A stretch of 54,742 nt of DNA, taken from Clostridia bacterium (GTDB taxonomy: Bacteria > Bacillota > Clostridia > Oscillospirales > Acutalibacteraceae). This document shows, one piece after another, positions 31,801-46,265 of this stretch. Below the pieces are notes generated by a model that was given only the letters and a program-made list of their open reading frames with translations, was not told the DNA's origin and did not search any database. The translations under genes and the position numbers were made by a program. Position 1 is the stretch's first letter, and each line of letters begins with the position of its first letter. The stretch is from positions 1 to 54,742 of the forward strand of contig JAFYVE010000050.1 of assembly GCA_017549285.1 (NCBI GenBank). Direction: 5' to 3'.

Positions 31801-34604
31801 TTTAAATCGATATTAAGATGATTTTTTTTGAAATTAAAAGTAATAGGAAGCGTTGCTTCTGCCCATAATCCGGAGGAAACAATGTCATTTACACCTAAAC
31901 CTGCGCCACCCTTTATATCAGGTTTAAGTGTTATGGATAACTCTTCAAAATTAAACGGCATTGAGTTGTCAGCAACATATTTTGCACCGCGAGCAGATCC
32001 TTCCAAACCTGCTCCCGCTTCAATATAAACATATGCAGGAATAATCCAGATAGCACCTTGCTGAGTGTATTCGAATTTAAATTCACCGGCAACATTGATA
32101 CACGCATCTGTTATAACCAGTTCGCCGTTAATAAATGTTGCATCAATATAACCAAAAACATTGACATTAAAGTCTTTTGATTTCTTCGGTGGTGAGATTA
32201 TTCCGAATTCTGTATATTCAAAGTTTTCTCTGAGTTTATCAAATTCCTCCAGTGATTTTTCTATATCTGTGGTAAGTGTATTGTTGCAGTAATCTTTCCA
32301 GTTTTTGAAGGTTTCTGAACTCCATTCGCTGTATTTTCCCGGATTATCGGGACTGTTTTCCTTACTGAGGTCAAATAAATTTAAGCCGATTGAAATTTTT
32401 ATTCTGTCATCACTGATCTGAAACCCTGCAGGAAATTTATAAGCTTCCAGATTAAGTTCTGCACTACCGAGAATTGGTGACTCTGAATTGAATGAAGTGC
32501 CGACAATACCATCACCCAAAAGATTGAATGTTTTTCCTTCGGAAAGATTTTCTAATGCTTCAAGATTGGTTGCAGGCTGTTTTTCAAATTTTACAGGGAA
32601 ATAATCACTATTCCCTCCATCACTTGTTATTATAAAAGCATAACAATCTTTATTCATATCAAGAACGCTATATAATTCTTCATTTGTAAAAATACCGGTC
32701 TGGTTTGAAATCTTATGATTTTCGTCCTGTATAATAAAATATGTACAGTCGATTCCTTCGGTATTTACTGCACTGATAATTATATCATAATAATAGTTTC
32801 GGTATACTTTAAGTTCTTCCTGAATTATATTTTTAAATTCGTCATTTTCCTTCCTCGCAAAAACAGTTGAAATAAAAGGCTGTCCGCCATTATTGTTTTC
32901 GTTAAGCATTGCAGTATGTATATATGAAGGTTTGCTGTTTTTTGTTTCAAAATTTTCCGTTGATTTCCATGATGCAATAACTTCTTCAGGAATAATATAA
33001 TCATAATAATCTTCACATGAAATAACCACCTGTTGTGCATTGTCTTCATGCGATATGATAAAATCCTTATTTTCAGAAGAGTTTACTGTTTCATTTGAGC
33101 CGAATGTGCATTTTGCATTTTCAAGAAAATTATTACTATGCGGCGTCTTTGCGGCATCTCTTACGCTGATTACAATATCATTTTTTTCAGCCGGAATAAA
33201 ATAATTATCAACAATCGCACTGTCACCAAAGTGAATACGAACATAGGATAGTGGTGAGTTGTAGTCACAAATAGAAATTTTTTTCCATTGTTCTCTGTTT
33301 CCTAAATAATACACATCGGTAAGATTGCTACAGTTATAGAATGCCCATGCTTCAATTGTTGTTATACTATCTGATAATGTGACATTTGAAAGCTTATTAC
33401 ATTTATAGAAAGTATAATTATTAATTTCTTTAACCCCGTTACCTATTGTTACACTTTCAAGATTATCACAAGATCTAAACGCCGCAAAACCAATATTTGT
33501 TACATTATCAGGAATTGATATTTTTTCAAGACTATTACATTCATCAAAAGCATAATCATCAATCGCAGTCACAGATTCAGGAACTATAACATTTTTTAGG
33601 TTATAACAACCTTGAAATGTTGCATAATTAATCCATTTTACACCATTAGGAATTCTAATATATTCAAGTTTTTGACAGCTGTTAAAAGCATTATCCCCTA
33701 TATATGTTATGTTATCGGGAATATCAATACTTACAAGATTCAAACATCCGCTAAAAACAGATGAATTGATACGTGTTACACCATCAGGAATTGTTATATT
33801 TATAAGATTTGTACAGCCTCCGAATGCACCGCTTCCAATTGATGTTACATTATCAGGAATTGTTATATTTGTAAGACTTTTACATCCATTAAAAGCATTA
33901 TCACCAATAGATAGCACATCATCTGAAATTGTTATATTTGTAAGATTTTTACAACTATAAAATGCTGAATCTCCAATCGATGTTACACCATCAGGAATTG
34001 TTATATTTGTAAGGCTATAACAGTATTCAAATGCTCTTGCAGATATTGTTTTTATACTTTTGGGAATTGTTATATCTGTAATATTTTTACAACCTGAAAA
34101 TGCAGTTTTGCCGATTGATGTTACACCATCAGGAAGATTGATATATGCAAGACTCGAACAAGCTTCGAATGCACCTGCAGATATATTTTTAATACTATAA
34201 GGAAGTGTTATATTTATAAGTCTATAGCAATAATAAAATGCTGATTCACCAATGGATTCTACACCATCAGGAATTGAAACACTTTCAAGCCAAACACATG
34301 AATTGAATGCATTATTCCCGATTGATGAAACACCATCTGCAATTATCACATTTTTGATTGATGCACGCTGAACGCTCCATGGACTATTTTCTTTATAATT
34401 AGAAATAGATGCGTTATAATCATTCATTTTTCCGTTCCCTGAAATAAACAATTCACCGTCGGAATATAAAGTATACGTCAGATTAGCACCATCGGCACCA
34501 CAGTTTCCACTACTTATTATTTCTCTGTCTTCCGCAAACGCTGAAAGCGGAAACATTGTAATCGCCATAAGCATTGCAAGAAAAACAGAAACAAATTTTT
34601 TCAC
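28875..34604 (-). CDS. Giant secreted BspA-like LRR, CARDB and dockerin surface protein
   Basis: A 1909-residue secreted protein. The GTG start at 34604 has GGAG 8 bases upstream; signal peptide about 1-24. Residues ~85-465 hold 15 BspA-like leucine-rich repeats of 23 residues (pattern IPDGVTSIGDSAFYSCKNLT). A large middle region follows: about 480-930 of unknown fold, then WVEDD/WQKMKE-type repeats (about 1030-1350) reminiscent of a beta-propeller. Residues ~1395-1600 look like two CARDB/APHP Ig-like domains. Residues ~1640-1835 contain repeated CTEKGYT..YSCACGF and GHTYSKEV units. Residues ~1846-1909 are a C-terminal type I dockerin (GDANGDGKITAADARITL and VTGDGKLTAADARKIL). Adhesion or substrate capture is likely, but undetermined. 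Confidence 0.88.
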   Translation of the reverse strand: MKKFVSVFLAMLMAITMFPLSAFAEDREIISSGNCGADGANLTYTLYSDGELFISGNGKMNDYNASISNYKENSPWSVQRASIKNVIIADGVSSIGNNAFNSCVWLESVSIPDGVESIGESAFYYCYRLINITLPYSIKNISAGAFEACSSLAYINLPDGVTSIGKTAFSGCKNITDITIPKSIKTISARAFEYCYSLTNITIPDGVTSIGDSAFYSCKNLTNITISDDVLSIGDNAFNGCKSLTNITIPDNVTSIGSGAFGGCTNLINITIPDGVTRINSSVFSGCLNLVSIDIPDNITYIGDNAFNSCQKLEYIRIPNGVKWINYATFQGCYNLKNVIVPESVTAIDDYAFDECNSLEKISIPDNVTNIGFAAFRSCDNLESVTIGNGVKEINNYTFYKCNKLSNVTLSDSITTIEAWAFYNCSNLTDVYYLGNREQWKKISICDYNSPLSYVRIHFGDSAIVDNYFIPAEKNDIVISVRDAAKTPHSNNFLENAKCTFGSNETVNSSENKDFIISHEDNAQQVVISCEDYYDYIIPEEVIASWKSTENFETKNSKPSYIHTAMLNENNNGGQPFISTVFARKENDEFKNIIQEELKVYRNYYYDIIISAVNTEGIDCTYFIIQDENHKISNQTGIFTNEELYSVLDMNKDCYAFIITSDGGNSDYFPVKFEKQPATNLEALENLSEGKTFNLLGDGIVGTSFNSESPILGSAELNLEAYKFPAGFQISDDRIKISIGLNLFDLSKENSPDNPGKYSEWSSETFKNWKDYCNNTLTTDIEKSLEEFDKLRENFEYTEFGIISPPKKSKDFNVNVFGYIDATFINGELVITDACINVAGEFKFEYTQQGAIWIIPAYVYIEAGAGLEGSARGAKYVADNSMPFNFEELSITLKPDIKGGAGLGVNDIVSSGLWAEATLPITFNFKKNHLNIDLNGSIGLEAEFFTLKQDYVIVDDTLNLVDEYFNTQRTEKAISVKKIKSAMLHENSVSVIDREYLENTSPWMGMASTYRLKNIEQNGLSLTPLQTSVFNQAASQVVAFGDKMLMAWVEDDISRDIYNRMRLMYSIYENGIWSEPIAVADDGKNDTMPVITTDGTNVYFAWQKMKEVITEKTATIEYFVENTEIYTAKYDASENRVVEVKNVSDNSCYDYAQSIAIVNGKAVCYWASCQDNQMIISSDNSIYRFESGNKVAEVKSGLNYILSIAGSSVNGKENISFSMDADGDTTTTDDVTIYTLVDNTLTPFDKGHNNVAYTYAFYGELDGRQTLFTTDMRNVYYIQDGETKSVINGNGMLSGNFNYVVKNGVPTLFWTENEETGNAVYSSAYENEEWTKPVRLSNTGTQLSSVDIVVYNDEFRGVCTSSTIGYNETKEKNEIVQTDLCALKIDEVQDISVDGVYIDEQNIRIGKETEFNVYVTNNGTKKVNNVTFTISDNLCSEVTVTKSVNLASGDGCFINLPYTAPANYAKTTLNVTASCDEISDSNSENNTYSKEIGKAKLIFTESELIETNDKYLITAMVTNESDVSVENVVINTLFNDSEEVIESTTITEIGPRETYLIQTIVSENNIVFDEETGVARVCITAEENDNYITGAKICYIIVKPVENECEHVITQIINRIEPTCKDIGYEGDIQCILCEEIIGKGDEMPTTYHTLEVIFGKPATCTETGLTEGKKCSVCGEILVVQKEISAKGHDYKKVVTAPTCTEKGFTTYTCDCGLSFRDNYINPTGHTYSKEVIAPTCTEKGYTIYSCACGFSDRLDYVNATGHTYSKEVVAPTCTEKGYTIYSCACGFNDKLDYVNAKGHTAGAWVVKTPAKVGVKGLEQQKCTVCGAVVNERDIPALPDVSYMTGDANGDGKITAADARITLRISAKLEKIEDYNLPLSALDVTGDGKLTAADARKILRASAKLETL
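29110..29480 (-). repeat. Near-identical tandem ~111-bp coding repeats
   Basis: Three copies of a 37-residue unit (CTEKG..CxCG..GHTYSKEV) in the giant surface protein. The two central copies are almost identical at DNA level, so copy number may vary by slippage or recombination. Confidence 0.75.
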
Positions 34605-34636
34605 ATCAATCACTCCGAATGAATAAGGATACCTTT

Positions 34637-34680: not shown

Positions 34681-34707
34681 AAAAAACCTTGTCCGATTTG
34701 GACAAGG
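34681..34707 (-). terminator. Terminator of the glycan operon
   Basis: Perfect 8-bp stem CCTTGTCC/GGACAAGG (34687-34694 with 34700-34707), then six T on the minus strand. Confidence 0.9.
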
Positions 34708-34714
34708 CTTTGAT

Positions 34715-35680
34715 TTATACATTGACTTCTTCTTTTTGTTTTTCCGTATCGAAATTAAGTCTTTCGGCTTCGATAACGAGGGGGCGTTTCATTATTCGCT
34801 TATTGATATTAAGGATATATTCACCGATAAAGCCTATGAAGAACAGCTGAACTGCGCCGAGGAAAAGCATACCTAAAAGAATGGGAGCTGTGCCTGCAGG
34901 GAATCTTTCCCAGTACATAAGCTTAAGGATGAAATAGATTACACCGAGAATACCACTCATTGCACCGATACCAAGACCGCAGAATGTTGCGAGTCTGAGG
35001 CCTATCTTTGTGTATGAAGTGATACTGAGCATTGCTGCATCATAAAGAGAATAGAAGTTATTATGTGTCTTTCCTGCTCTTCTCTTGGGCTGTTCGTAAG
35101 GAATTTCCTTTCTTTCAAAACCAAGCTCGGCAACGATACCACGCATAAAAGGAATGGGGTCATCAAGCTCACGAAGAACTTCAATGAACGCTCTGTCATA
35201 AAGTCCTGAGCCTGTGAAATGCTCAATCTGTTCAACGTCAGACATCTTTTTGATTATCTTGTAATAGCAGGTACGGAGAGCACGCATAATCTTGCTTTCC
35301 TTACTGCTTGTCTTGATGCCTATAACAATTTTATAGCCGTTTTCCCACTCTCTTACATACTGAGGGATAAGTTCAACGGGGTCCTGAAAGTCACAGCACA
35401 TCTGAATAACACAGTCGCCTGTAACCTGAAGCACTCCGTAGTAAGGAGAATTGAACTGACCGAAATTCTTTGCATTGAAAATTGCCTTTATTTTCGGATT
35501 ACTTGCACAGATACCTCTGAGGATATCTCTTGTGCCGTCCTTTGAATCATTATCGATAAAAACAAGTTCATAGTCATACTGAGGAAGTTCTGTTGTCATA
35601 ATATTGACAATAGCTTCACTCATAGGCCCTACATTTTCTTTTTCATTATAACAAGGAATGAGAATACTTATTTTTTTCAT
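34715..35680 (-). CDS. Polyprenol-phosphate glycosyltransferase, GT2 (GtrB/CsbB-like)
   Basis: A 321-residue GT2 enzyme. The GT-A domain has ISILIPCYNEKENV (about 4-17), DNDSKDGT (about 50) and the acidic DFQDP (about 95); the C-terminus has two long hydrophobic helices (about 230-300). This architecture is that of undecaprenyl-phosphate sugar transferases such as GtrB and CsbB, which load one sugar onto the lipid carrier on the cytoplasmic face. Its ATG overlaps the SDR stop codon (ATGA), so it is coupled to it. As last gene of an operon that begins with a YfhO-family protein, it likely provides the lipid-linked sugar donor for YfhO. Confidence 0.9.
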   Translation of the reverse strand: MKKISILIPCYNEKENVGPMSEAIVNIMTTELPQYDYELVFIDNDSKDGTRDILRGICASNPKIKAIFNAKNFGQFNSPYYGVLQVTGDCVIQMCCDFQDPVELIPQYVREWENGYKIVIGIKTSSKESKIMRALRTCYYKIIKKMSDVEQIEHFTGSGLYDRAFIEVLRELDDPIPFMRGIVAELGFERKEIPYEQPKRRAGKTHNNFYSLYDAAMLSITSYTKIGLRLATFCGLGIGAMSGILGVIYFILKLMYWERFPAGTAPILLGMLFLGAVQLFFIGFIGEYILNINKRIMKRPLVIEAERLNFDTEKQKEEVNV

Positions 35681-36597
35681 TTTCGCACCTCTTTCATCCA
35701 TTCGGCTGTACGCATTATTGATTCCTCAAATGTAAGTTCGGGAACAAAGCCTGTATCCTCTGTAAGCTGACTGATATCTGCACAAAGATACATAACCTGA
35801 CCTTCATTATAAGGTAAATCCCCTAAACCAACCTTTAAATCGGGATTTATGCAGTCACGCATAGCCGTGATATACTCGGCAAGAAGTCTTGTTTTTCCGC
35901 TGCCGAGGGGGTATACCGCACCGTGCTTACCATTTTCACCGATAAGGTAAAATGCTGTTGCGGCATCGTCACAATGGAGGAAGTCCCACTGCTGTTCACC
36001 CTTCGTGAAAGAAGTATACTCTCCTTTGAGCATTTTGTCAAGGCTCGACATAATAATTGAATTCGGATTGCCTTTCTGCCCGAAAACACTTAAAATACGC
36101 ACCCAACAATGCCTTAAACCTAACTGTTCGGCATACATACGGCTGAATTTACCTGCGGTATATTTTGCAATTCCGTAGCCTGTTTCCGGATTACACGGAG
36201 TAACTGCTGTGAGCTTTTCGGTTGTTCTGCCGTATTCAGCCTGTGAACCTGCACTTACAAAACATTCACAACCTGTGTCTGCGGCAAGCTTTACCGCATC
36301 AAGAGTGTATTTTATATTATCTGTCTGAGTATAAGTGTCATTTCTGACATTTCCGAATGTTCCGAGCCACGCAAAATGATAAAGAACATCGCATTTTTTG
36401 TCAATTTTTGCTGACAATTCGGCATATTCCGAAATATCGGCATCAATTGCCGTCACAAGAGGACTTTTAAAAAAATCATCATCCTTGTTATCTTCTTTTC
36501 TGCAGAGTGCAATAACTTCAACATTTTCTTTAACAAGTTTTCTGATAAGCGCTGACGCAATCATACCCGTTGCGCCTGTTACAATGGCTCTTTTCAT
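35677..36597 (-). CDS. NAD(P)-dependent nucleotide-sugar reductase/epimerase (extended SDR)
   Basis: A 306-residue extended short-chain dehydrogenase. It has the Rossmann motif TGATGMIASAL (about 7-17), HFAWLG, SAGSQAEYG with the active-site serine (about 115) and YGIAK (Tyr/Lys about 142-146). It resembles the abequose/paratose synthase branch of sugar SDRs. By position, directly after the YerE-like gene, it is a candidate for the reductase that turns the acetyl branch into a hydroxyethyl group (the YerF role in yersiniose synthesis); that role is inference. It follows the TPP-enzyme gene by 15 bp and overlaps the GT2 start by 4 bp. Confidence 0.82.
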   Translation of the reverse strand: MKRAIVTGATGMIASALIRKLVKENVEVIALCRKEDNKDDDFFKSPLVTAIDADISEYAELSAKIDKKCDVLYHFAWLGTFGNVRNDTYTQTDNIKYTLDAVKLAADTGCECFVSAGSQAEYGRTTEKLTAVTPCNPETGYGIAKYTAGKFSRMYAEQLGLRHCWVRILSVFGQKGNPNSIIMSSLDKMLKGEYTSFTKGEQQWDFLHCDDAATAFYLIGENGKHGAVYPLGSGKTRLLAEYITAMRDCINPDLKVGLGDLPYNEGQVMYLCADISQLTEDTGFVPELTFEESIMRTAEWMKEVRK

Positions 36598-36612
36598 CTG
36601 AATTACTCCGTT

Positions 36613-38424
36613 TTACTCAGTTATAAGGGGGATAAACATAATTTTTTCAAGCTCTTCACGGGGAAGGAAGGGTGCAAGGTCCTCAAGAGGAGCTGAAACG
36701 AGAGAACCGTCGGGAAGCTTCTTTGTTGCCGACTTGGGTTCAAACTTCTGTTCGGGGTCAACCATAATTTCGCAGAATGCATAACCGGGAATTGCAAGTG
36801 TTTCTTCTATTTTTGCGCCCAGGTCTGCATTTTTCTCAATTCTTACATAAGGAATGCCGTATGCGGGAATGAGCTTTGACATATCGGGGAAACTCAGGTC
36901 GTGGCTGTCCTGACCGACACCTACAAGAGGTTCACCGAAGAAATTCATCTGCGACTGTCTGATTGAATGATAGCCGCCGTTGTTTATCATAAAGATTTTG
37001 ATGGGTAATTTATTCTGAACGATAGTCTGAAGCTCCTGAAGATTCATCTGAATACTTCCGTCACCTGTAATATTGATTATATCCTGACTGTGGTCGCATA
37101 CACAAGCACCGATTGCGGCAGGTAAATCATAACCCATTGAAGCGATAGCTGAATTTATGATAAAACGCTGATCTTTTTTGATAACATAACCGTGAGAGCC
37201 GACAACACAGGCTGAGCCGTTACCTACAACAGCAATCTGACCTTCGTTAAGACGAGAGCTGAGCTCCTTGATAAATGCATAAACATTTACGGGCTCTGTC
37301 TGTTCATAGTGTTTAGGAAGAACAACGGGATAGTCTTTCTTCCAGCCTCTGCAGGTTTCGTTCCAGTTTTCCTTTGTGAAAACCTTTTCGTCTGAGAGAA
37401 GCTCATCCATTCTCTTAAGGAATGCCTTTGCATCTGCACATATGGGCATATCGGGGTTGACTGTGGGCTTTTTGAGCTCTTCGGGGTCAACATCAACAAC
37501 GATCTTCTTTGCAGCTCTTGCCCAGGATTTATAGTTGTAGCCTACCTGACGGATACTAAGTCTGCTTCCGACAGAGAAAAAGATATCTGAATTCTGAACG
37601 GCAAAGTTACCGGGTCTGTCACCCATAATACCTGCTCTACCCACATAGAGAGGATGCTCGTCTTCGATAAGATCGATACTGTCCCAACCCGTTACAACAG
37701 GGATATTGAGCTTTTCGATAACACTTCTGAATTCATCAAAAGCTCCTGCAATTCTGATGCCGTTACCTGCATTAAAAACAGGTCTTTCAGCATTCTTTAT
37801 CATATTGATAATCTCAAGAATAACATCATCAGAAGGCACTTCAGGAAGTGTTTCGTCACCCTCACCGTCATAGGGATACAGGTCGTCTGTTTCAACATAA
37901 GACCCCTGAATATCAAGGGGAATATCAAGCCAACAAGGGCCGGGTCTGCCCTGCTGAGAAAGTTTAAGAGCTTTCTCAAGGCAGTATCTGATTCTGTTTT
38001 TATCTGTCACCATTTCACAGTATTTTGTCATACAGTCAATGGCTTTTGTGATTTCAAATTCCTGATCACCCATAGCACGGATGCCGAGTCCTGACCAGCG
38101 TGCAGTTGTGTCATAACGCACCTGACCTGAAATAACAAGCATCGGGATAGAATCAAGCCAACCTCCTACAACACCTGTTATGGCATTTGTACCACCGGGG
38201 CCTGTTGTGACAACACAAGCGGCAATTTTATTGTGGATTCTCGCATAACTTTCAGCCGCAATTGCACAAGCCTGTTCGTGATGATTATAGATACAATGCA
38301 TACCTTCCTGATGACCGAAAGCATCGTTAAGATGCATCGCACCGCCACCCGTTACGGTGAAAGCGGTGTCGATACCGTGATCAACAAGAAACTGAGAAAT
38401 ATAATTGGAAACTTTTATTTTCAT
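36613..38424 (-). CDS. Thiamine-diphosphate enzyme, acetolactate synthase-like (YerE-like)
   Basis: A 603-residue ThDP enzyme of the acetohydroxyacid synthase fold. The catalytic glutamate is in HHEQACAIA (about 49), TTGPGGTN (about 73) follows, and the ThDP/Mg motif is TGDGSIQMNLQEL...NNGGYHS (about 448-480). It is not a housekeeping IlvB: it lies in a CDP-dideoxysugar operon, immediately after and overlapping rfbH by 4 bp. In Yersinia pseudotuberculosis O:VI, YerE has this gene context and transfers an acetyl unit from pyruvate to C4 of CDP-4-keto-3,6-dideoxyglucose. I infer the same type of reaction here, making a branched sugar. No ilvC/ilvN partner is present. Confidence 0.8.
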   Translation of the reverse strand: MKIKVSNYISQFLVDHGIDTAFTVTGGGAMHLNDAFGHQEGMHCIYNHHEQACAIAAESYARIHNKIAACVVTTGPGGTNAITGVVGGWLDSIPMLVISGQVRYDTTARWSGLGIRAMGDQEFEITKAIDCMTKYCEMVTDKNRIRYCLEKALKLSQQGRPGPCWLDIPLDIQGSYVETDDLYPYDGEGDETLPEVPSDDVILEIINMIKNAERPVFNAGNGIRIAGAFDEFRSVIEKLNIPVVTGWDSIDLIEDEHPLYVGRAGIMGDRPGNFAVQNSDIFFSVGSRLSIRQVGYNYKSWARAAKKIVVDVDPEELKKPTVNPDMPICADAKAFLKRMDELLSDEKVFTKENWNETCRGWKKDYPVVLPKHYEQTEPVNVYAFIKELSSRLNEGQIAVVGNGSACVVGSHGYVIKKDQRFIINSAIASMGYDLPAAIGACVCDHSQDIINITGDGSIQMNLQELQTIVQNKLPIKIFMINNGGYHSIRQSQMNFFGEPLVGVGQDSHDLSFPDMSKLIPAYGIPYVRIEKNADLGAKIEETLAIPGYAFCEIMVDPEQKFEPKSATKKLPDGSLVSAPLEDLAPFLPREELEKIMFIPLITE

Positions 38425-39755
38425 TTAGCTTCAACTGCCTCAATAATTGTTTTTGCCATATAGTCAATCATTTCGTCTGTCATTCCGGGATAAACGCCAA
38501 CCCAGAATGTATCATTCATAATTCTGTCTGTATTGTTGAGCTCGCCTACAACTCTGTAACCCTTGCCTGAAGCTCTCATTTCATCAAAACAGGGATGCTT
38601 TGTAAGGTTACCTGCAAAGAGCATTCTTGTCTGTACGCCCTTTGATTCAACATACTTTACTACTTCTGTTCTGCTGATGCCTTCATTACAGGTGATAAGG
38701 AAACCGAACCATGAGGGATCACCGTTTTCAACTGCTTCGGGAAGAATAACTTTGTCTGCAATGGGAGCAAGAGCTGCCTTGAGACGTGCAAAATTGTGTT
38801 TTCTTCTTTCAACGAATGAGGGGAATTTTTCAAGCTGAGCACAGCCTACTGCTGCCTGAAGGTCTGTTGCCTTGAGGTTGTAACCGAAGTGTGAATATAC
38901 ATATTTATGGTCGTAGCCGAAAGGAAGTTCACCATACTGACCGTCAAAACGATGACCGCAGAGATTGTCCTGACCTGAGTTACATACACAGTCACGGCCC
39001 CAGTCACGGATTGAACGGCTGATTCTTGCAAGAAGCGGATTATCAGTATAAACAGCACCGCCCTCACCCATTGTCATATGATGGGGAGGATAGAATGATG
39101 ATGTACCGATATCACCGATTGTGCCTGTGAATTTCTTTTCACCGTCGATTGTATACTGTGAGCCGAGAGCGTCACAGTTATCTTCGATAAGCCAGATATC
39201 GTGCTTTGTGCAGAATTCCTTTACAGCCTTGAGGTCAAAAGGATTGCCGAGTGTGTGAGCAATCATAACAGCCTTTGTCTTTTCTGTGTAAGCCTCTTCG
39301 AGCTTTGTAACATCAATATTGTACTGAGGAATTGTAACATCAACAAACACGGGGATTGCACCGTACTGAATGATGGGAGTTACTGTTGTGGGGAAACCAG
39401 CGGCAACCGTGATAACTTCGTCACCGGGAAAAACTCTCTTGTCACCGAGAAGAGGTGATGTGAGAGTCATAAATGCAAGAAGATTTGCGCTTGAGCCTGA
39501 GTTTACAAGTGCACAGGAGCGAACACCGAGGTATTTTGCAAGTTTCTTTTCAAACTCGTCTGTGTATCTGCCTGCTGTAAGCCAGAATTCGAGAGCGCTG
39601 TCAACAAGATTAACTGCTTCGTTGCTGTCATATACTCTTGATGCGTAAGGAATTCTCTGCCCCTCAACGAAATCTTTCTTTACATTATGATATTTTTCAA
39701 AATACTCTGCAACAGCAGAGAGTATGGCTTGTTTATCGAGTTCCTGATTGCTCAT
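38421..39755 (-). CDS. rfbH: CDP-4-keto-6-deoxyglucose 3-dehydrase (E1, PMP and iron-sulfur)
   Basis: A 444-residue B6 enzyme of the DegT/DnrJ fold that removes the C3 hydroxyl of CDP-4-keto-6-deoxyglucose. The usual lysine is replaced by histidine in FYPPHHMTMGEGG (about 221-231), and cysteines in DCVCNSGQDNLCGHRF (about 252-263) match the [2Fe-2S] ligands of E1 (RfbH/AscC/DdhC). GYNLKATDLQAA follows. E1 normally needs an NADH-dependent reductase E3 (DdhD/AscD), which is not in this window, so an unlinked or different electron donor is required. It is between rfbG (23 bp upstream) and the YerE-like gene. Confidence 0.95.
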   Translation of the reverse strand: MSNQELDKQAILSAVAEYFEKYHNVKKDFVEGQRIPYASRVYDSNEAVNLVDSALEFWLTAGRYTDEFEKKLAKYLGVRSCALVNSGSSANLLAFMTLTSPLLGDKRVFPGDEVITVAAGFPTTVTPIIQYGAIPVFVDVTIPQYNIDVTKLEEAYTEKTKAVMIAHTLGNPFDLKAVKEFCTKHDIWLIEDNCDALGSQYTIDGEKKFTGTIGDIGTSSFYPPHHMTMGEGGAVYTDNPLLARISRSIRDWGRDCVCNSGQDNLCGHRFDGQYGELPFGYDHKYVYSHFGYNLKATDLQAAVGCAQLEKFPSFVERRKHNFARLKAALAPIADKVILPEAVENGDPSWFGFLITCNEGISRTEVVKYVESKGVQTRMLFAGNLTKHPCFDEMRASGKGYRVVGELNNTDRIMNDTFWVGVYPGMTDEMIDYMAKTIIEAVEAK

Positions 39756-39778
39756 AATTACATTCCTTTCAGATTTGA

Positions 39779-40828
39779 TTATATATTGAAGAATTCTTTT
39801 ATCTGTTTTTCTGTGATTGCAGGCACATCGCCGTCAGAAGCGAACACTTTTGTCCATTCAACAGTCTTTTCAACAGCTTCGGTTGCAGACCAGGTGGGTT
39901 TCCAGCCGAATGTTGTTTTGAGAAGTGAACAGTCAAGTTTCAGGAAGTTTGCTTCGTGAGGTCCGTCCTTTTTAAGGCATTCGAAGGTCTGTCCTTCACC
40001 CCATGAATTGCAGAAAATTGTTGCAAGCTGACCTGTTGTAAGGCAGTCTCTTTCATCGGGTCCTACATTATAATAGCCCTGATATTTTATATCTTCATAC
40101 TGAGCCTCGGCAATCATAAGATATGCATTCAGAGGCTCAAGCACATGCTGATAAGGTCTTGTTGAGTTGGGATTTCTGACTATAACGGGCTTTTTATCCA
40201 TAGCGGCACGTACACAGTCGGGAATTATACGGTTATCAGCAAAGTCACCGCCGCCGATAACATTACCTGCTCTTGCAGTTGAAACAGCAACACCTGTATT
40301 GTCAAAGAATGATGCTTTATAGCTGTGTGTTACAAGCTCTGAGCAGGATTTTGAGTTTGAATAAGGGTCAAAACCATCAAGAGGTTCGTTTTCACGGTAA
40401 CCCCAGCACCATTCGTTATTCTTATAAACCTTGTCTGTAGTGACATTAAGAACAGACTTTACGGAGGGTGTAAGTCTTACACATTCAAGAATGTTGACCG
40501 TCCCCATTACATTTGTTTCATATGTGTACTTGGGCTGTTCATAAGAAGTGATAACGATAGGCTGTGCCGCAAGATGGAACACGATTTCAGGCTGAACTTC
40601 ATCAAAAACAGCCTTGAGGTGGTCGTAATCTCTTATATCACCGATAACGGATTTCATTTTACCCTCAAGCCCTGCAACTGAGAAAAGATTGGGATTTGTG
40701 GGAGGCTCAAGTGAATAGCCGGTCACATCTGCACCTGCCATAACAAGAATCTTTGAAAGCCACGAGCCTTTAAAGCCTGTATGACCTGTCAGAAGGACTT
40801 TTTTACCTTTATAAAAATCAAGATTCAT
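39779..40828 (-). CDS. rfbG: CDP-glucose 4,6-dehydratase
   Basis: A 349-residue NAD-dependent extended SDR converting CDP-glucose to CDP-4-keto-6-deoxyglucose. Features: LLTGHTGFKGSWLSK (about 11-25), HLAAQPIV, NVTTDKVYKN (about 127) and DPYSNSKSCSELV with the catalytic Tyr/Lys (about 153). These are specific to the CDP-glucose branch rather than dTDP-glucose dehydratase. AAAGGA precedes ATG. Between it and rfbF lie two palindromic elements (40845-41090) but no clear promoter. Confidence 0.95.
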   Translation of the reverse strand: MNLDFYKGKKVLLTGHTGFKGSWLSKILVMAGADVTGYSLEPPTNPNLFSVAGLEGKMKSVIGDIRDYDHLKAVFDEVQPEIVFHLAAQPIVITSYEQPKYTYETNVMGTVNILECVRLTPSVKSVLNVTTDKVYKNNEWCWGYRENEPLDGFDPYSNSKSCSELVTHSYKASFFDNTGVAVSTARAGNVIGGGDFADNRIIPDCVRAAMDKKPVIVRNPNSTRPYQHVLEPLNAYLMIAEAQYEDIKYQGYYNVGPDERDCLTTGQLATIFCNSWGEGQTFECLKKDGPHEANFLKLDCSLLKTTFGWKPTWSATEAVEKTVEWTKVFASDGDVPAITEKQIKEFFNI

Positions 40829-40844
40829 AAGATAATCCTTTCAT

Positions 40845-40962
40845 AAAATGAGTAATTAGTAATGAGTAGTGAGTAATGAAGGAAGGGGCATACCCCTTAC
40901 CCCATTTTTAATTCCAAGTCCGAAGGACTTCCGACATTGCTAATTGCTCATTACTCATTTTT
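40845..40962. repeat. Palindromic intergenic element 1
   Basis: Imperfect inverted repeat: AAAATGAGTAAT...AATGAG on the left and CTCATTACTCATTTTT on the right, around an inner hairpin AAGTCC/GGACTT (40916-40930). There is no ORF. It looks like a small non-coding mobile-type repeat lying between rfbG and rfbF. Confidence 0.6.
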
Positions 40963-40986
40963 CATTGCAAACACATTGCGAACAAT

Positions 40987-41090
40987 AATTTTGTGCAGAT
41001 TATGTGCAGAGGGCATTTTCTTTGAGTTGCCGCGTATGAAAATACGCAAGACGAGAAAAAATGTTCTCTGTGCGTAAGCTGTGCAAAATT
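40987..41090. repeat. Palindromic intergenic element 2
   Basis: Imperfect ~25-bp inverted repeat AATTTTGTGCAG.../...CTGTGCAAAATT around GCGTAT/ATACGC. Its right end reaches into the rfbF stop codon (41089-41091). Confidence 0.55.
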
Positions 41091-41862
41091 ACCAGACTTT
41101 CCAGGGAGCAGTGCCGTCTGCCCAGAGTTTCTCAAGGTAGTTTTTATCTCTTAATGTATCCATACACTGCCAGAAGCCGTCGTGAGGATATGCCATAAGC
41201 TCTCCTCTTCTTGCAGCCTCTTCAAGAGGATATTTTTCAAATACTGTTGAGTCACCTTCGATAAGGTCAAGGATTGAAGGTTCAAGCACCATAAATCCGC
41301 CGTTGATAACACCGCCGTCCTGCTGTGTCTTTTCACGGAACTGCTGGATGCAGCCTTCTTCATTTATATCAAGCACGCCGAAACGGGCTGTGATTTTAAT
41401 TGCTGTGAGAGTTGCCATTTTACCGTGTGCCTTATGGAACTCAAGAAGCTTGTTGATATCAACGTCTGACACACCGTCACCGTAAGTAAGGAAGAAAGGC
41501 TCGTCACCAATATAGTCCTTAACTCTCTTTACTCTGCCGCCTGTCATTGTGTTAAGGCCTGTATCAACGATTGTAACCTTCCAGGGCTCTGAAAAGTTTG
41601 TGTGAACAGTCATTTCGCCGTTGTTTGAGAAGTCAAATGTAATGTCACTTCTGTGAAGATAATAATCAGCAAAGAATTCTTTGATTACGTGCTGTTTATA
41701 TCCGCCGCAGATGACGAATTCATTGAAGCCGTAATATGAATACTGCTTCATGATGTGCCAGAGAATGGGCATATCGCCGATCTGTATCATAGGTTTGGGA
41801 ATAAGATGGCTTTCTTCACTGATTCTTGTACCGAATCCGCCTGCAAGAATTACAACTTTCAT
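41089..41862 (-). CDS. rfbF: Glucose-1-phosphate cytidylyltransferase
   Basis: A 257-residue nucleotidyltransferase that makes CDP-glucose from CTP and glucose 1-phosphate, the first committed step of CDP-dideoxysugar synthesis. The N-terminal LAGGFGTRISEES..PKPMIQIG is the family signature. TYGDGVSDVD (about 127) is the metal-binding region, and WQCMDTLRDKNYL at the C-terminus is typical of RfbF/DdhA. AAAGGA precedes ATG. It begins 16 bp after the YfhO gene. Confidence 0.96.
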   Translation of the reverse strand: MKVVILAGGFGTRISEESHLIPKPMIQIGDMPILWHIMKQYSYYGFNEFVICGGYKQHVIKEFFADYYLHRSDITFDFSNNGEMTVHTNFSEPWKVTIVDTGLNTMTGGRVKRVKDYIGDEPFFLTYGDGVSDVDINKLLEFHKAHGKMATLTAIKITARFGVLDINEEGCIQQFREKTQQDGGVINGGFMVLEPSILDLIEGDSTVFEKYPLEEAARRGELMAYPHDGFWQCMDTLRDKNYLEKLWADGTAPWKVW

Positions 41863-41878
41863 TTTTATTATCCTTTCG

Positions 41879-44596
41879 TTATCTGATATAATAGTAGTAG
41901 ATATTGAACGCTATCGGGAGAAGATATACTGTTGCAAGTGATAAAAGCATACCTGCATAATAAACTTTTTCAAAAACTTTAAGGAATCCGTTTGAAGCTT
42001 CCTGACTGAACGGTTTTTTCTTTTCGATAATGATTATTGCAAGAACTGAGAGTGCAACAATCACAGTAATGAGAATACCGAGCTTCATACCGTAAGGCAG
42101 GTAATTCATTTCGATTACGTTTTCGCCCTTCTGAAGCTTCACTGCCATAAATGAACTCATCGCAATGCTGATATCCTGCTTTTCACCGTTGACTTTACAG
42201 CTCCAACCTTCATCGTAAGTGACAGGAATAAACACATATGTATCATCATTATCACTTGTATATACGGCTTTCAGGCTCTTGGGACCTGTTGTTACTTCTG
42301 CGTGATTATCCTTATTGATTTCGCAGAGTGAACCAAGTTTTGAATAATCAAAATAGCCTACTGTAATATTTACATCTTTACCGATGTTCTTTACTGCAAA
42401 AATATCAATCCGGACATCTTCATTTTCATATACACCGAGATCAATAAGCTCATTATGGAAATTGTTCGGGTAATTATAATTCACATCAGCACCGAAATAA
42501 CGGAGATCTGCTTTTCTGCCGTTTATCAGGATTGTGACCGACCCTCTGTATACTGATGAGTTCTCAATATCAACGTGAAGATAAACGTGCTTTTTGCCGT
42601 CCACGTGAACTGTCTGACTGAAATCGCTGTCGATATCAAATGTAAATTCATCTGTTGTGCACAGGGGTGATTTGTCACCCGTAAGAGCTGTATAAAGCTG
42701 ATTGTTAGAAGTGAATACGTCATTATTTTCAACAATATCAATATTCATAAAGTCTTCGTTCACAACAAGACCGACAGGAAGAGTGTAGTTATTGCTGTAA
42801 AGCTTTGTGTTACCGATATCGTACATATAAGTATATTCAGATCCATCGGTATCCTTCTGAGTAAATGTGTATTTCATATTCAGAAGAGCATCCGAAAGAA
42901 GTGTACCTACGCTGTCGATAACACGTGTATAAATCTGTGAATATCCGAGAGCTTCCATTGTTGAAGTCATATCGGATGATACGAGATGTGTGAAGTTTGC
43001 AAGAGCCGGATATTCGAAAAACATCGGGAAGTTACTGTTGAGTCTTACATCTGCATCCTTGATTCGTGAAAGATTGTCATTTTCAAGTTTCAGCTGTTCA
43101 GCCATTTCAAGTGAGTCGTCAATGAAATCAAGACTGTACATTGCAGTTCTTTTTGTGTTATCGGAGTTTGTTCCGAATGATACGTTTGCAAGAAGCCCGA
43201 TTTCTGCAATAAGGACACCTGCCATAAGAACATATGAAAGCTTTTTGATACCAACAAAAAGACAGAGAACATAGAATAATGCAAAACAGAAGAATGAAAG
43301 CATTATCCATTTTTCGCAATCATCGAAAAGAAGCTTGTTGTATTTGAGTCCGCTGACTGTTGAAACTTCTTTATAGACATATGAAACGAGAAGAAAAAAG
43401 CCGCCTGCAGCACTTGCGATTGCAGGGATAAGAACGGGAATGTTCTTTACGCCCTTTATTGAAAATGCCGTATTCTTTGTATTCTGAAGTACATATGCTG
43501 CCATACACACAAGAATGAATGAGAGCATATACATATATCTCAGCGGGAAACCGACATATGAACCGAGATGCCATATGAGGTTAATATTCTCGAAGAAAAC
43601 AGGCATTATGAGAATTGCGATTGAAGCTGCAAAGAACAGACACGCTTTTTTATGCTGTCTGAAATTTACGAAGAGTATCAGAAGGAATGCAAGGAATACT
43701 GCCGAACAAAGAAATACGACAGAAAACTTTACTTCTGAATAAGACTGTGGATTCTTGAGAATTTTCAGGATTGTATCAAACGCCGTTTCTTCTGATTTGA
43801 TTGAATAACGGGTTGAACGGAACATATAGTAAACTGACGGAACATTAATGACTGCCGATGCAGCAATTGAGAGAACTGATGTTACTCCGAAACGGATGAT
43901 AGTCATTTTTCTTGTTTCTTTGGGCTGAACGATTGCAAGATAAAGGAAGCCGATAAAGAACAGAAACAGGAACACCATATATGAAATATAAATTGAGAGC
44001 AACAATGTGTACGTGAGCATAAGGAAATAAGGAAGCCACTTGCCCGTTCTGAACATTCTGAGAAGGAAGTAAATCAGCACGGGGAACATAAATGCTGCGT
44101 CTATCCACCCCATATTGGTATAATAGATAATAATAAATGCGCTGCAGCTGTAAGCTACCGAAAGGAAAACCTGCCAATAGGGTTCAATTTTGAATTCTTT
44201 TCTTAAAAAGAACATCATTGAAAGTGCAGCCATTGTCATTTTGAAAATAATGAGGAACGGTATACCGTTTACTATTCCGTCACGGGGACATAACAATGTA
44301 AAAACAATTTCCCAGGGTTTCAGAATATAGAAACCTGTTGTGAGAACCTGAGTTCCTGCGGCAGTCTGCCAGTTGAACAACAGCGACTTATCACCGCCTG
44401 AGTGAAGATAATCCCAGAAGTATGTATAGTTTGATATAGTCTGCTGAACCATATCATCACATACAACGCTGCCGGCTCCGAAAGGATAAATTCCGTTTAC
44501 GGCATAAATAACAAGAACTACGGCAATTGTGACAAGCCCTGCGAATGCATAGGGCAGAAAATTCACAACGTTGATTTTTGAATTTTTCAATTTCAA
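41879..44596 (-). CDS. YfhO-family GT-C membrane glycosyltransferase-like protein
   Basis: A 905-residue polytopic protein with about 12-14 helices plus a large extracytoplasmic beta-rich domain (about 480-830) and a final helix. The first external loop has GSVVCDDMVQQ with paired acidic residues, the expected catalytic position in GT-C enzymes, and the layout matches the YfhO family. In Bacillus subtilis YfhO works with the GT2 CsbB to add a sugar to lipoteichoic acid. Here the operon also ends with a CsbB/GtrB-like GT2. The start is TTG (44596) 9 bases after GGAG; an ATG at 44605 is blocked by a stop. It is first gene of the glycan operon. Confidence 0.85.
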   Translation of the reverse strand: MKLKNSKINVVNFLPYAFAGLVTIAVVLVIYAVNGIYPFGAGSVVCDDMVQQTISNYTYFWDYLHSGGDKSLLFNWQTAAGTQVLTTGFYILKPWEIVFTLLCPRDGIVNGIPFLIIFKMTMAALSMMFFLRKEFKIEPYWQVFLSVAYSCSAFIIIYYTNMGWIDAAFMFPVLIYFLLRMFRTGKWLPYFLMLTYTLLLSIYISYMVFLFLFFIGFLYLAIVQPKETRKMTIIRFGVTSVLSIAASAVINVPSVYYMFRSTRYSIKSEETAFDTILKILKNPQSYSEVKFSVVFLCSAVFLAFLLILFVNFRQHKKACLFFAASIAILIMPVFFENINLIWHLGSYVGFPLRYMYMLSFILVCMAAYVLQNTKNTAFSIKGVKNIPVLIPAIASAAGGFFLLVSYVYKEVSTVSGLKYNKLLFDDCEKWIMLSFFCFALFYVLCLFVGIKKLSYVLMAGVLIAEIGLLANVSFGTNSDNTKRTAMYSLDFIDDSLEMAEQLKLENDNLSRIKDADVRLNSNFPMFFEYPALANFTHLVSSDMTSTMEALGYSQIYTRVIDSVGTLLSDALLNMKYTFTQKDTDGSEYTYMYDIGNTKLYSNNYTLPVGLVVNEDFMNIDIVENNDVFTSNNQLYTALTGDKSPLCTTDEFTFDIDSDFSQTVHVDGKKHVYLHVDIENSSVYRGSVTILINGRKADLRYFGADVNYNYPNNFHNELIDLGVYENEDVRIDIFAVKNIGKDVNITVGYFDYSKLGSLCEINKDNHAEVTTGPKSLKAVYTSDNDDTYVFIPVTYDEGWSCKVNGEKQDISIAMSSFMAVKLQKGENVIEMNYLPYGMKLGILITVIVALSVLAIIIIEKKKPFSQEASNGFLKVFEKVYYAGMLLSLATVYLLPIAFNIYYYYIR

Positions 44597-44632: not shown

Positions 44633-44661
44633 ATCATACCACAGATGCTCTATATAGTCAA
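44633..44661 (-). promoter_or_regulatory. Promoter of the glycan operon
   Basis: TTGACT (44661-44656), 17-bp spacer, TATGAT (44638-44633). Confidence 0.75.
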
Positions 44662-44753: not shown

Positions 44754-46265
44754 ATGAAAAAGAAAATTTTATCAATAACCACAATATTTTCTCTGTTTTT
44801 ACTCTCAGCCGTTCCTTGCAGTGCGGCAGGCATTTCCGCAAATAATGACCCGATTGATTTTGCGGCAGCATGGGAATGCTTCAGAGTCCTCACTTCGGCA
44901 CAGATTGCACTTGCATTCACAGTTGTTGTGTTGATACTGTTTTTTGTTTTCCGCAAAAAACTCAGCAAAAAACTTGACAATTCATCATCAGCATCAATGA
45001 TGAATGCATTTCTCGGCTTTTTCTCGATTTTCGGAATCGGCTGTTTCATAATGGCTGTTATATCAGACGGTGACACCTGGTCACATCTTATGTATTACAA
45101 TCCGAATTCCGAATATGCAATAACCCAGTTTTCTGATTACATTCTGGGTGTTCAGCACGCAGGAAAACAGGATTTTGCGGGAATTGCCGACAGGTTCTCA
45201 CCTCTTGGAATCATTATTTACTATATAATTGCACAGTTCCTTCCTCCTAACCTTGTTTTTAGTGAAACAATACTGCATTATATCAAGATTCTCAGAAACC
45301 AGACATTTATGTATCTGTATCTGATTCTTGTTATGATGTGCCTTCTTCTCATTTACAAGATGAACAGAGCTGTTCTCAGAAGAAACGGACTCAAGGTAAG
45401 AGATGAGCTTGTTGCTTTCCTTGCTATTGTTTCATACCCGACAATGTACTGCGTTGAACAGGGCAACGTTGCAGGTATAGGTGTTACTCTCACATTGCTT
45501 TTCGCACTTTTCTATGATTCAAAGAATCAGATTCTCAGGGAGTTATCACACCTTGCACTTGCATTCTCTGCAGCACTCAATCCCGTTATGATTCTTTTTA
45601 TTGCATTACTCTTCATCAACAAAAAGAAGAGAACAAAGAAAGATATCGTTAAAATCATCTTATACACCGTGATTTCATACATCATTCCATCTTTTGTAGT
45701 CGGTTTTGACTCTCTTTCAATCTATATGCAGAGCCTGTTCACGGTTTCAAAAGACATTTTTGCAGCATCAAATATGAGCATAGCGAACCTGCTTGTTTTC
45801 TTCGGTGTAAACAACATTATTGTGCTTAATATTGTTACGATTGCTATGAATATAATTGCAGTTGCGTGTGCATTTATTCTTCCCTCTGCCTGGCAGAAAA
45901 TGACTGCATTAATCTATGTTGTTCTCAACATTTATTCATTCTCTAATCCCGTAAATCTTATATTCATTTTCATTCCCCTTGTATTCCTTCTTTCGGAAAA
46001 GACTCACAAGGCATCCGATTGGTTATATCTGCTTGCATTTGCACTTCTTGTTACTCCGTTCCCTGAATGGTTCTGGTTTGAACTTTCCGAATTCAATCAC
46101 TTTATGATTATGTTCAACATAAAGAACATCAGAAATGCAAATAACCTGATTTCTCTCGCATCAGTACAGACACTTTTCTTCCTGACTGTAAGCTCTGCTA
46201 TAAAAGTTCTCAGAAACAGAAAAGCTTCTGTAAAAGAAGTTGCAGAAAGCACAAAGACTGCATAA
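44754..46265 (+). CDS. Polytopic membrane protein resembling GT-C (GT87-like) glycosyltransferase
   Basis: A 503-residue membrane protein with a signal-like first helix (about 1-27), a further helix at ~52-68, and about ten more helices. After the second helix is a loop SDGDTWSHLMYYNP (about 103) with acidic residues, and later PTMYCVEQGNVAGI (about 225), similar to the RGQ/NxGN-type segment of polyprenol-dependent GT87 enzymes. The assignment is by architecture rather than a certain family match; a polymerase or flippase is an alternative. It faces away from the CDP-sugar operon across a shared 157-bp intergenic region, so it may belong to the same glycan system. Short terminator follows. 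Confidence 0.6.
   Translation: MKKKILSITTIFSLFLLSAVPCSAAGISANNDPIDFAAAWECFRVLTSAQIALAFTVVVLILFFVFRKKLSKKLDNSSSASMMNAFLGFFSIFGIGCFIMAVISDGDTWSHLMYYNPNSEYAITQFSDYILGVQHAGKQDFAGIADRFSPLGIIIYYIIAQFLPPNLVFSETILHYIKILRNQTFMYLYLILVMMCLLLIYKMNRAVLRRNGLKVRDELVAFLAIVSYPTMYCVEQGNVAGIGVTLTLLFALFYDSKNQILRELSHLALAFSAALNPVMILFIALLFINKKKRTKKDIVKIILYTVISYIIPSFVVGFDSLSIYMQSLFTVSKDIFAASNMSIANLLVFFGVNNIIVLNIVTIAMNIIAVACAFILPSAWQKMTALIYVVLNIYSFSNPVNLIFIFIPLVFLLSEKTHKASDWLYLLAFALLVTPFPEWFWFELSEFNHFMIMFNIKNIRNANNLISLASVQTLFFLTVSSAIKVLRNRKASVKEVAESTKTA

Follow-up and report, generated by a model that had tools for sequence, protein, structure and literature searches.

A seven-gene operon of a clostridial genome that probably makes a branched 3,6-dideoxyhexose and displays it at the cell surface

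The contig JAFYVE010000050.1 of a Clostridia bacterium (assembly GCA_017549285.1; family Acutalibacteraceae), analysed here over its 54,742 nucleotides and referred to as the window, carries seven minus-strand open reading frames (ORFs) that span 44596–34715. In order, they encode a YfhO-family transferase of the GT-C glycosyltransferase fold, RfbF, RfbG, RfbH, a thiamine diphosphate (ThDP)-dependent enzyme, a short-chain dehydrogenase/reductase (SDR) and a GtrB-like glycosyltransferase of family 2 (GT2). Upon re-checking, coordinates and gene order matched an initial annotation of this DNA exactly, and the gene identities proposed there were borne out by Pfam, NCBIfam and solved relatives. 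We regard it as fairly probable that a single branched 3,6-dideoxyhexose, most likely of the yersiniose type, is both made and displayed by way of this operon.

The genes are separated by 16 bp (YfhO–rfbF), 260 bp (rfbF–rfbG), 23 bp (rfbG–rfbH) and 15 bp (ThDP–SDR), with overlaps of 4 bp between rfbH and the ThDP gene and of 25 bp between the SDR and GT2 genes. They are best read as one transcription unit, and the arrangement is not a chance one because it recurs in relatives. The long rfbF–rfbG gap, which measures 39 bp and 289 bp in the same-genus loci L041 and L040, respectively, holds an imperfect inverted-repeat element (40845..40966, without strand) of TAATGAG-type units with 39-nt arms, possibly a small mobile repeat. 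Upstream of YfhO lies a promoter-like site with an extended -10 element, TTGACT-17-TATGAT (44633..44661, minus strand); as a consensus match only, and with 40 such sites in the region by scan versus 30.5 in shuffles, it is weak evidence. An intrinsic terminator, CCTTGTCCAAATCGGACAAGG then TTTTTT (34681..34707, minus strand), follows 7 bases past the GT2 stop codon; it was read directly from the sequence, and the scan used for the promoter lists this stem on the plus strand only. Rfam matched nothing within the operon and one tRNA in the window.

Three of the genes correspond to the early enzymes of CDP-linked 3,6-dideoxyhexose synthesis (CDP, cytidine diphosphate), all on the minus strand. RfbF (DdhA), a glucose-1-phosphate cytidylyltransferase (41089..41862), scores 399.8 bits against TIGR02623 (cut-off 300.25), RfbG (DdhB), a CDP-glucose 4,6-dehydratase (39779..40828), scores 447.6 bits against TIGR02622 (cut-off 278.45), and RfbH (DdhC), the pyridoxamine phosphate- and [2Fe-2S]-dependent 3-dehydrase known as E1 (38421..39755), scores 716.4 bits against NF011936 (cut-off 423) and has 3bcx as its nearest solved chain (524.7 bits). 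An alignment checked in Yersinia E1 numbering, with residue roles taken in part from PMC8987622, shows the catalytic His that replaces Lys and the four [2Fe-2S] Cys to be kept in 28/28 family sequences (H225/H226, C194, C256, C258 and C266 in the window protein). With these residues conserved, RfbH should depend on electrons as an E1 does, unlike the ColD-type enzymes.

The assignment of the next gene (36613..38424, minus strand) as a YerE-like ThDP-dependent carboligase draws upon its match to JanthE, a tree with an approximately unbiased (AU) test, individual residues and a C-terminal tail. The protein contains the domains PF02776, PF00205 and PF02775, and its catalytic Glu (E50) and GDG motif (G454-D455-G456) are invariant in 13 aligned sequences. 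Its best solved relative is JanthE (8rph, 415 bits, 36% identity), a characterised YerE-like ketone carboligase (PMC12247030, PMC12188165), as compared with 235 bits for the best acetolactate synthase. It shares with JanthE and other YerE-like carboligases the sequence family and, with JanthE, a C-terminal tail missing from the aligned acetolactate synthases; it differs in its GDG motif, where JanthE has CDG as the cofactor motif and accepts a broad range of substrates (PMC12247030). Equivalents of the JanthE positions Y297, F564 and K567 are present, three of the eight checked.

It is highly improbable that the enzyme is instead an acetolactate synthase taken up for metabolic use, with no connection to the sugar genes. 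Its ten best NCBIfam models are acetolactate synthases, none of which reaches its cut-off (for TIGR00118, the biosynthetic enzyme, 349.8 bits against 538.35), and the five remaining JanthE positions (121, 268, 293, 494 and 498) differ, two of them, 293 and 494, carrying the acetolactate synthase residue; these differences speak against a YerE-like role. A first tree of 38 rows, which included an IolD-like enzyme, had an extremely long branch and poor support along its backbone; it was rebuilt without that enzyme and with fewer rows. In the resulting 23-row tree, in which JanthE is the sole characterised YerE-like enzyme and Yersinia YerE is absent, a split with 100/100 support parts the window enzyme and JanthE from three acetolactate synthases; JanthE sits in an unresolved fork and is not the immediate neighbour of the window enzyme in either tree. 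A grouping of the window enzyme and its L040 relative with the acetolactate synthases, the outcome that the initial annotation had named as speaking against its proposal, is rejected by the AU test (p 2.59e-55). A separate IlvB, which among solved proteins matches E. coli IlvB best (478.7 bits), is encoded elsewhere in the genome next to genes read as ilvD and leuA, as is another enzyme read as IolD. On the tree, the AU test and the separate IlvB, the acetolactate synthase reading was rejected; the JanthE-type tail and the presence of RfbH in 38/39 genomes with the ThDP enzyme also tell against it. JanthE outscores the acetolactate synthases for 121/122 ThDP sequences compared, the exception being L176, with L166 nearly even. 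The ThDP genes of these two rfb clusters fall on the acetolactate synthase side of the 23-row tree, which also weighs against the main reading; their separate lineage could possibly represent a second origin of the branching step. Among plasmids, no close relative of the ThDP enzyme was matched at 1e-80.

The SDR, of the extended type (35677..36597, minus strand; PF01370, 134.6 bits), keeps Y141, K145 and S118 in 21/21 aligned sequences and is presumed to reduce a 4-C-acetyl group, a role like that of YerF. What the ThDP enzyme would attach was approached through its neighbours. Genes for HMGL-like or HpcH-type aldolases, types that Pfam confirmed on one member each, lie near 14/20 of the family ThDP genes that are more remote (at most 61% identity), near 0/20 of the closest (at least 66%; some of these contigs are short) and near 0/8 named loci with at least 64% ThDP identity. 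The lack, at the closest loci, of the aldolases seen at distant ones favours pyruvate as the branch donor, and the window enzyme most likely uses pyruvate, which would lead to a yersiniose-type sugar. A branch of more than two carbons, built from a longer 2-oxo acid into an erwiniose- or caryophyllose-like sugar, appears unlikely, even though the YerE-like ErwE prefers longer hydroxylated donors and uses 4-hydroxy-2-oxo acids (PMC12247030) and the distant relatives do adjoin aldolases. A genome-wide search for the HMGL-like type found none in the window's own genome or in the same-genus genomes G080 and G190, but a copy with 38% identity lies on another contig of the same-genus G263.

Other additional genes accompany some relatives. 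A C-methyltransferase is encoded in L095 (Pfam), with similar proteins, by reading, in L054 and L093. Beside the rfb and YerE-like genes of L061 (3848-5791; Pfam) and L065 (2963-4945; clustering) stands a protein with B12-binding and radical SAM domains, which suggests a further unusual sugar modification. Proteobacterial YerE-like loci, of Bradyrhizobium, Sphingomonas and kin (L136, L143, L152, L154 and L157), have a nearby GT2 match of lower score (243-398 bits), and 4/5 of them also an HpcH-type aldolase match.

The two terminal genes of the operon encode the membrane-associated partners. The GtrB/CsbB-like GT2 (34715..35701, minus strand), with two membrane segments by hydropathy count, has as its best solved relative GtrB of Synechocystis (sll0501, 147 bits) and is about 33% identical to annotated phage GtrB proteins; it is presumed to load undecaprenyl phosphate. 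The YfhO-family GT-C protein (41879..44596, minus strand; 905 aa) matches PF09586 over its full length (338 bits) and has 13 membrane segments by a simple hydropathy count. Its D48, H343 and R353 are invariant in all 14 YfhO-like proteins aligned, and the 13 YfhO proteins from clusters or GT2 pairs match one another with 272-1704 bits, whereas their scores with the second YfhO encoded in the window's own genome reach just 62-133 bits. The protein is presumed to transfer the sugar outside the membrane.

Co-occurrence ties these partners to the sugar genes. The survey covered 300 family genomes from a larger group, with counts that ignore relatedness and depend on E-value limits chosen by us (1e-100 for ThDP and RfbH, 1e-95 for GT2). 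A relative of the ThDP enzyme was present in 39 genomes, RfbH in 46 and GT2 in 38, the ThDP-positive genomes falling in 25/135 genera. RfbH was found in 38/39 ThDP-positive versus 8/261 ThDP-negative genomes, and GT2 in 36/39 versus 2/261. Two of the eight RfbH-positive, ThDP-negative genomes (G029 and G217) have a divergent ThDP gene in the cluster, on the acetolactate synthase side of the tree. Given this distribution, we consider it quite improbable that GT2 and YfhO add an ordinary sugar such as glucose or N-acetylglucosamine (GlcNAc), with the branched sugar used by other glycosyltransferases and the operon merely shared. CsbB/YfhO systems do carry GlcNAc, and related pairs galactose or glucose (PMC8035078); GT2 in L093 and L095 is 75-76% conserved versus 61-62% for ThDP and 25-31% for SDR; and GT2 can stand apart from the sugar genes, as in L181-L183, where a GT2-YfhO pair lies away from them in genomes that also hold RfbH and ThDP. 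The orthologous GT2 is nonetheless rare outside the ThDP-positive genomes and in most cases keeps its place next to the sugar genes even where the GT-C partner is a different one.

This change of partner is visible in the synteny of 40 family loci and 80 named loci, the latter being the best 80 matches listed; several contigs are short. Within the fetched stretches, RfbF, RfbG, RfbH, SDR and GT2 were found in 26, 26, 28, 26 and 26 of the family loci and in 30, 30, 37, 44 and 46 of the named loci, the family counts being partly by construction as the hidden Markov models for the loci were built from family loci. The window and L040-L044 have YfhO upstream (truncated by the contig end in L042); in L046, L051, L052 and L055, the YfhO-like protein is 27-31% identical and encoded downstream. 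YfhO adjoins GT2 in these four and in L086 and L087. Elsewhere, a PMT_2 protein (L053 by Pfam, L054 by clustering), a GtrII protein (L064 by Pfam, L066 by clustering) or a GT87 protein (L074, whose genome has GT2 on another contig) is found. The fullest decoration cluster seen, L166, encodes in a row YfhO, RfbF, RfbG, RfbH, GtrA, a divergent ThDP enzyme, SDR, GT2 and a PMT_2-like protein. Where at least 6 kb was available on both sides, GT2 was present in 16/26 family and 32/51 named loci; of these GT2-bearing loci, 12/16 and 24/32, respectively, encode a large polytopic protein on the same strand, a count that cannot tell GT-C proteins from flippases or polymerases. The coupling of the sugar genes to a lipid-carrier and GT-C module, as claimed in the initial annotation, is thus supported by co-occurrence and synteny.

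Gene identities, key residues, co-occurrence and modular synteny are properties of the sequences themselves; from them we infer the reaction products, the pyruvate donor, the SDR role, the electron source, the flippase and the acceptor. In the proposed pathway, RfbF would form CDP-glucose and RfbG would convert it to CDP-4-keto-6-deoxyglucose, from which RfbH would remove the hydroxyl at C3, drawing its electrons from a general ferredoxin or flavodoxin system. The ThDP enzyme would then add a two-carbon unit from pyruvate onto the C4 ketone, and the SDR would reduce the resulting acetyl group. The branched sugar would be loaded on undecaprenyl phosphate by the GtrB-like GT2, turned to the outside by a GtrA-type flippase encoded elsewhere and transferred to a surface polymer by YfhO.

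Several further observations weigh against this pathway, some of them gaps in the operon itself. It holds no candidate for DdhD (E3), the reductase of E1, although the published gene sets are ddhDABC (PMC3715488) and the yersiniose homologues of Pseudomonas WCS417 include ddhD (PMC4509608). A scan for the plant-type ferredoxin motif near the ThDP gene of the 40 family and 80 named loci, with the C54 protein as positive control, gave three signals, all judged false by sequence and one also by Pfam. A single NAD_binding_1 protein is encoded in the window's own genome, outside the operon; relatives occur in 12/46 RfbH-positive versus 36/254 RfbH-negative genomes (p 0.050, own genome counted), an association not convincing enough for a dedicated E3, and this candidate was rejected. 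The own genome is 88% complete and the search for E3 used no DdhD profile; with that completeness, absences are soft and that of E3 is no proof. Because no dedicated E3 was found, general ferredoxin or flavodoxin electrons are proposed for RfbH. A parallel exists in SpnQ, an E1-like iron-sulphur 3-dehydrase that has no dedicated reductase and is served by general ferredoxin or flavodoxin reductases (PMC8987622); SpnQ differs in acting on a deoxythymidine diphosphate-linked sugar in an antibiotic pathway, whereas the window protein is RfbH/E1 by sequence. The operon also lacks a GtrA gene, and of three GtrA-family matches elsewhere in the genome two are weak. Such a gene lies in the fetched stretch near the ThDP gene in 10/40 family and 4/80 named loci, between those for RfbH and ThDP in six of the family loci (clustering), and the GtrA of L053 scores 90.5 bits against PF04138.

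A loosening of the pattern counts on the same side. Three of the 39 ThDP-positive genomes are without GT2 at the 1e-95 threshold, and L047-L049 are lone ThDP genes, with rfbFGH-SDR-GT2 on another contig of those genomes. Even with at least 6 kb on both sides, GT2 is missing from 10/26 family and 19/51 named loci, and 4/16 family and 8/32 named GT2-bearing loci show no large polytopic protein on the same strand. Twelve named loci, mostly of Lachnospiraceae type (L090, L093, L095-L099, L105, L119, L162, L164 and L165), hold ThDP, SDR and GT2 but no rfbFGH in the fetched stretch; there, ThDP, SDR and GT2 are followed by a protein of 728-759 aa, which in L095 is a double GT2. The combination is nevertheless widespread, recurring in the family and beyond and becoming looser further away. 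Whether many Clostridia share a core (rfbFGH, YerE-like enzyme, SDR and GT2) that makes an undecaprenyl-phosphate-linked branched 3,6-dideoxyhexose without a dedicated E3 is, in our estimate, an even question; in such a scheme, interchangeable additions would set the branch (none, HMGL/HpcH aldolase, C-methyltransferase or B12 radical SAM protein) and the target (YfhO, PMT_2, GtrII or GT87). If true, this shared modular core would constitute an undescribed class of variable surface antigens on gut Gram-positive bacteria.

Yersiniose is reportedly present in a polysaccharide of Eubacterium saburreum which, if right, would be a precedent for such a sugar in a Gram-positive organism. C4-branched sugars are described from Gram-negative polysaccharides and Gram-positive antibiotics (PMC4753412). 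The yersiniose A set, ddhDABC-yerE-yerF of Yersinia pseudotuberculosis with homologues in Pseudomonas WCS417, resembles the window operon in its CDP-glucose route via E1 and its YerE-type carboligase, and its reductase has a putative counterpart in the SDR; it differs in that no ddhD/E3 was found in the window and the sugar is tied there to a lipid-carrier GT2 and a GT-C protein rather than to O-antigen assembly. The likeness to the yersiniose order drawn in the initial annotation holds in part: ddhA, ddhB, ddhC and a YerE-like gene are present, but the order as given there omits the ddhD of the published sets. On the side of the decoration machinery, CsbB-GtcA-YfhO similarly pairs a GT-A loading enzyme with a YfhO GT-C protein, together with a GtrA-family flippase; the acceptor is lipoteichoic acid in Bacillus subtilis and Staphylococcus aureus and wall teichoic acid in Listeria. 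The characterised systems described carry glucose, galactose or GlcNAc (PMC8035078), whereas the window operon would make its own rare sugar and does not include a flippase gene. O-antigen glucosylation by GtrABC of Salmonella and Shigella phages likewise employs a GtrB-like GT2, and L064 and L066 hold GtrII- and GtrA-family genes (clustering, with Pfam on one member of each); sugar, hosts and acceptor are different. The nearest published idea is the three-component pentofuranose addition of Citrobacter youngae O1/O2, in which a locus-encoded rare sugar on polyprenyl phosphate is served by a flippase and a GT-C enzyme, the differences being a pentofuranose derived from phosphoribosyl pyrophosphate, a MATE flippase and GT136 (PMC11127046).

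In the literature searched, which mostly excluded subscription papers, no YerE-type sugar joined to a GT-C decoration system was found among the matches listed. The remark of the initial annotation that no description of the combination was known stands to the extent that none was found there; the combination is not unique, as it recurs in the family and beyond. With branched-sugar synthesis wired to GT-C decoration, a new kind of surface epitope is predicted for these Firmicutes, relatives of gut Ruminococcus, and a cargo is suggested for one subset of the unassigned GT2/YfhO pairs. The loci also supply naturally occurring ThDP enzymes whose donors may vary, together with E1 enzymes that seemingly run without E3. 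As named strains possess the gene set (for example Oliverpabstia intestinalis, L125), the reading is testable.

Clues to the acceptor come from the genome at large and from relatives. The window's own genome encodes an LCP ligase, a pair of Glyphos_transf proteins and a pair of membrane-segment proteins with sulfatase domains, one of which is like the phosphoglycerol transferase MdoB though below cut-off; this set allows, and does not demonstrate, a phosphoglycerol-type acceptor. Behind the module of L095 come genes for two glycosyltransferases and a bacterial sugar transferase (PF02397), and the stretch has neither rfbFGH nor a clear GT-C protein; these neighbours suggest a cell-surface polysaccharide in that lineage. 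This runs counter to a surface protein as acceptor, with GT2 and YfhO working like PgfS and PgfM of Streptococcus mutans, an alternative that we judge to be unlikely. The two systems share a GT2 and large membrane proteins, and the Pgf operon modifies the surface proteins Cnm and WapA (PMC5856776); PgfS and PgfM2 are moreover the best NCBIfam matches of GT2 and YfhO. The scores, however, are far below the curated cut-offs (PgfS 167 of 500 bits, PgfM2 139 of 1500 bits), and the sugars differ. A dockerin and leucine-rich-repeat protein gene directly downstream also speaks for this alternative, but the terminator between it and the operon makes it a probable transcription unit of its own, and relatives have other genes at this place; membership of this gene in the operon was rejected on both grounds. 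Of the points raised in the initial annotation, lipoteichoic acid as acceptor and single placement of the sugar would be candidate features of the system.

The downstream gene (28875-34613, minus strand) encodes a 1912-aa BspA-type leucine-rich-repeat protein with a C-terminal type I dockerin, behind the terminator. In L051, a protein that reads like a small dockerin is encoded upstream of rfbF, with relatives in L052 and L055. On the other flank, a 503-aa membrane protein without a Pfam or NCBIfam match (44754-46265, plus strand) diverges from the intergenic region shared with the operon; it is possibly another GT-C protein, and its position in the same-genus loci L040 and L041 is taken by proteins of 508 and 522 aa that group in a single cluster. 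A close homologue of the GT2 (68.5% identity) occurs in a human faecal sequence labelled as an unverified bacteriophage (MT838861.1, 1-4803; L194), where its neighbours, by reading, are C-methyltransferase-like, dehydrogenase-like, LicD-like and flippase-like proteins; this sequence has less the appearance of a phage than of a polysaccharide locus from a bacterium.

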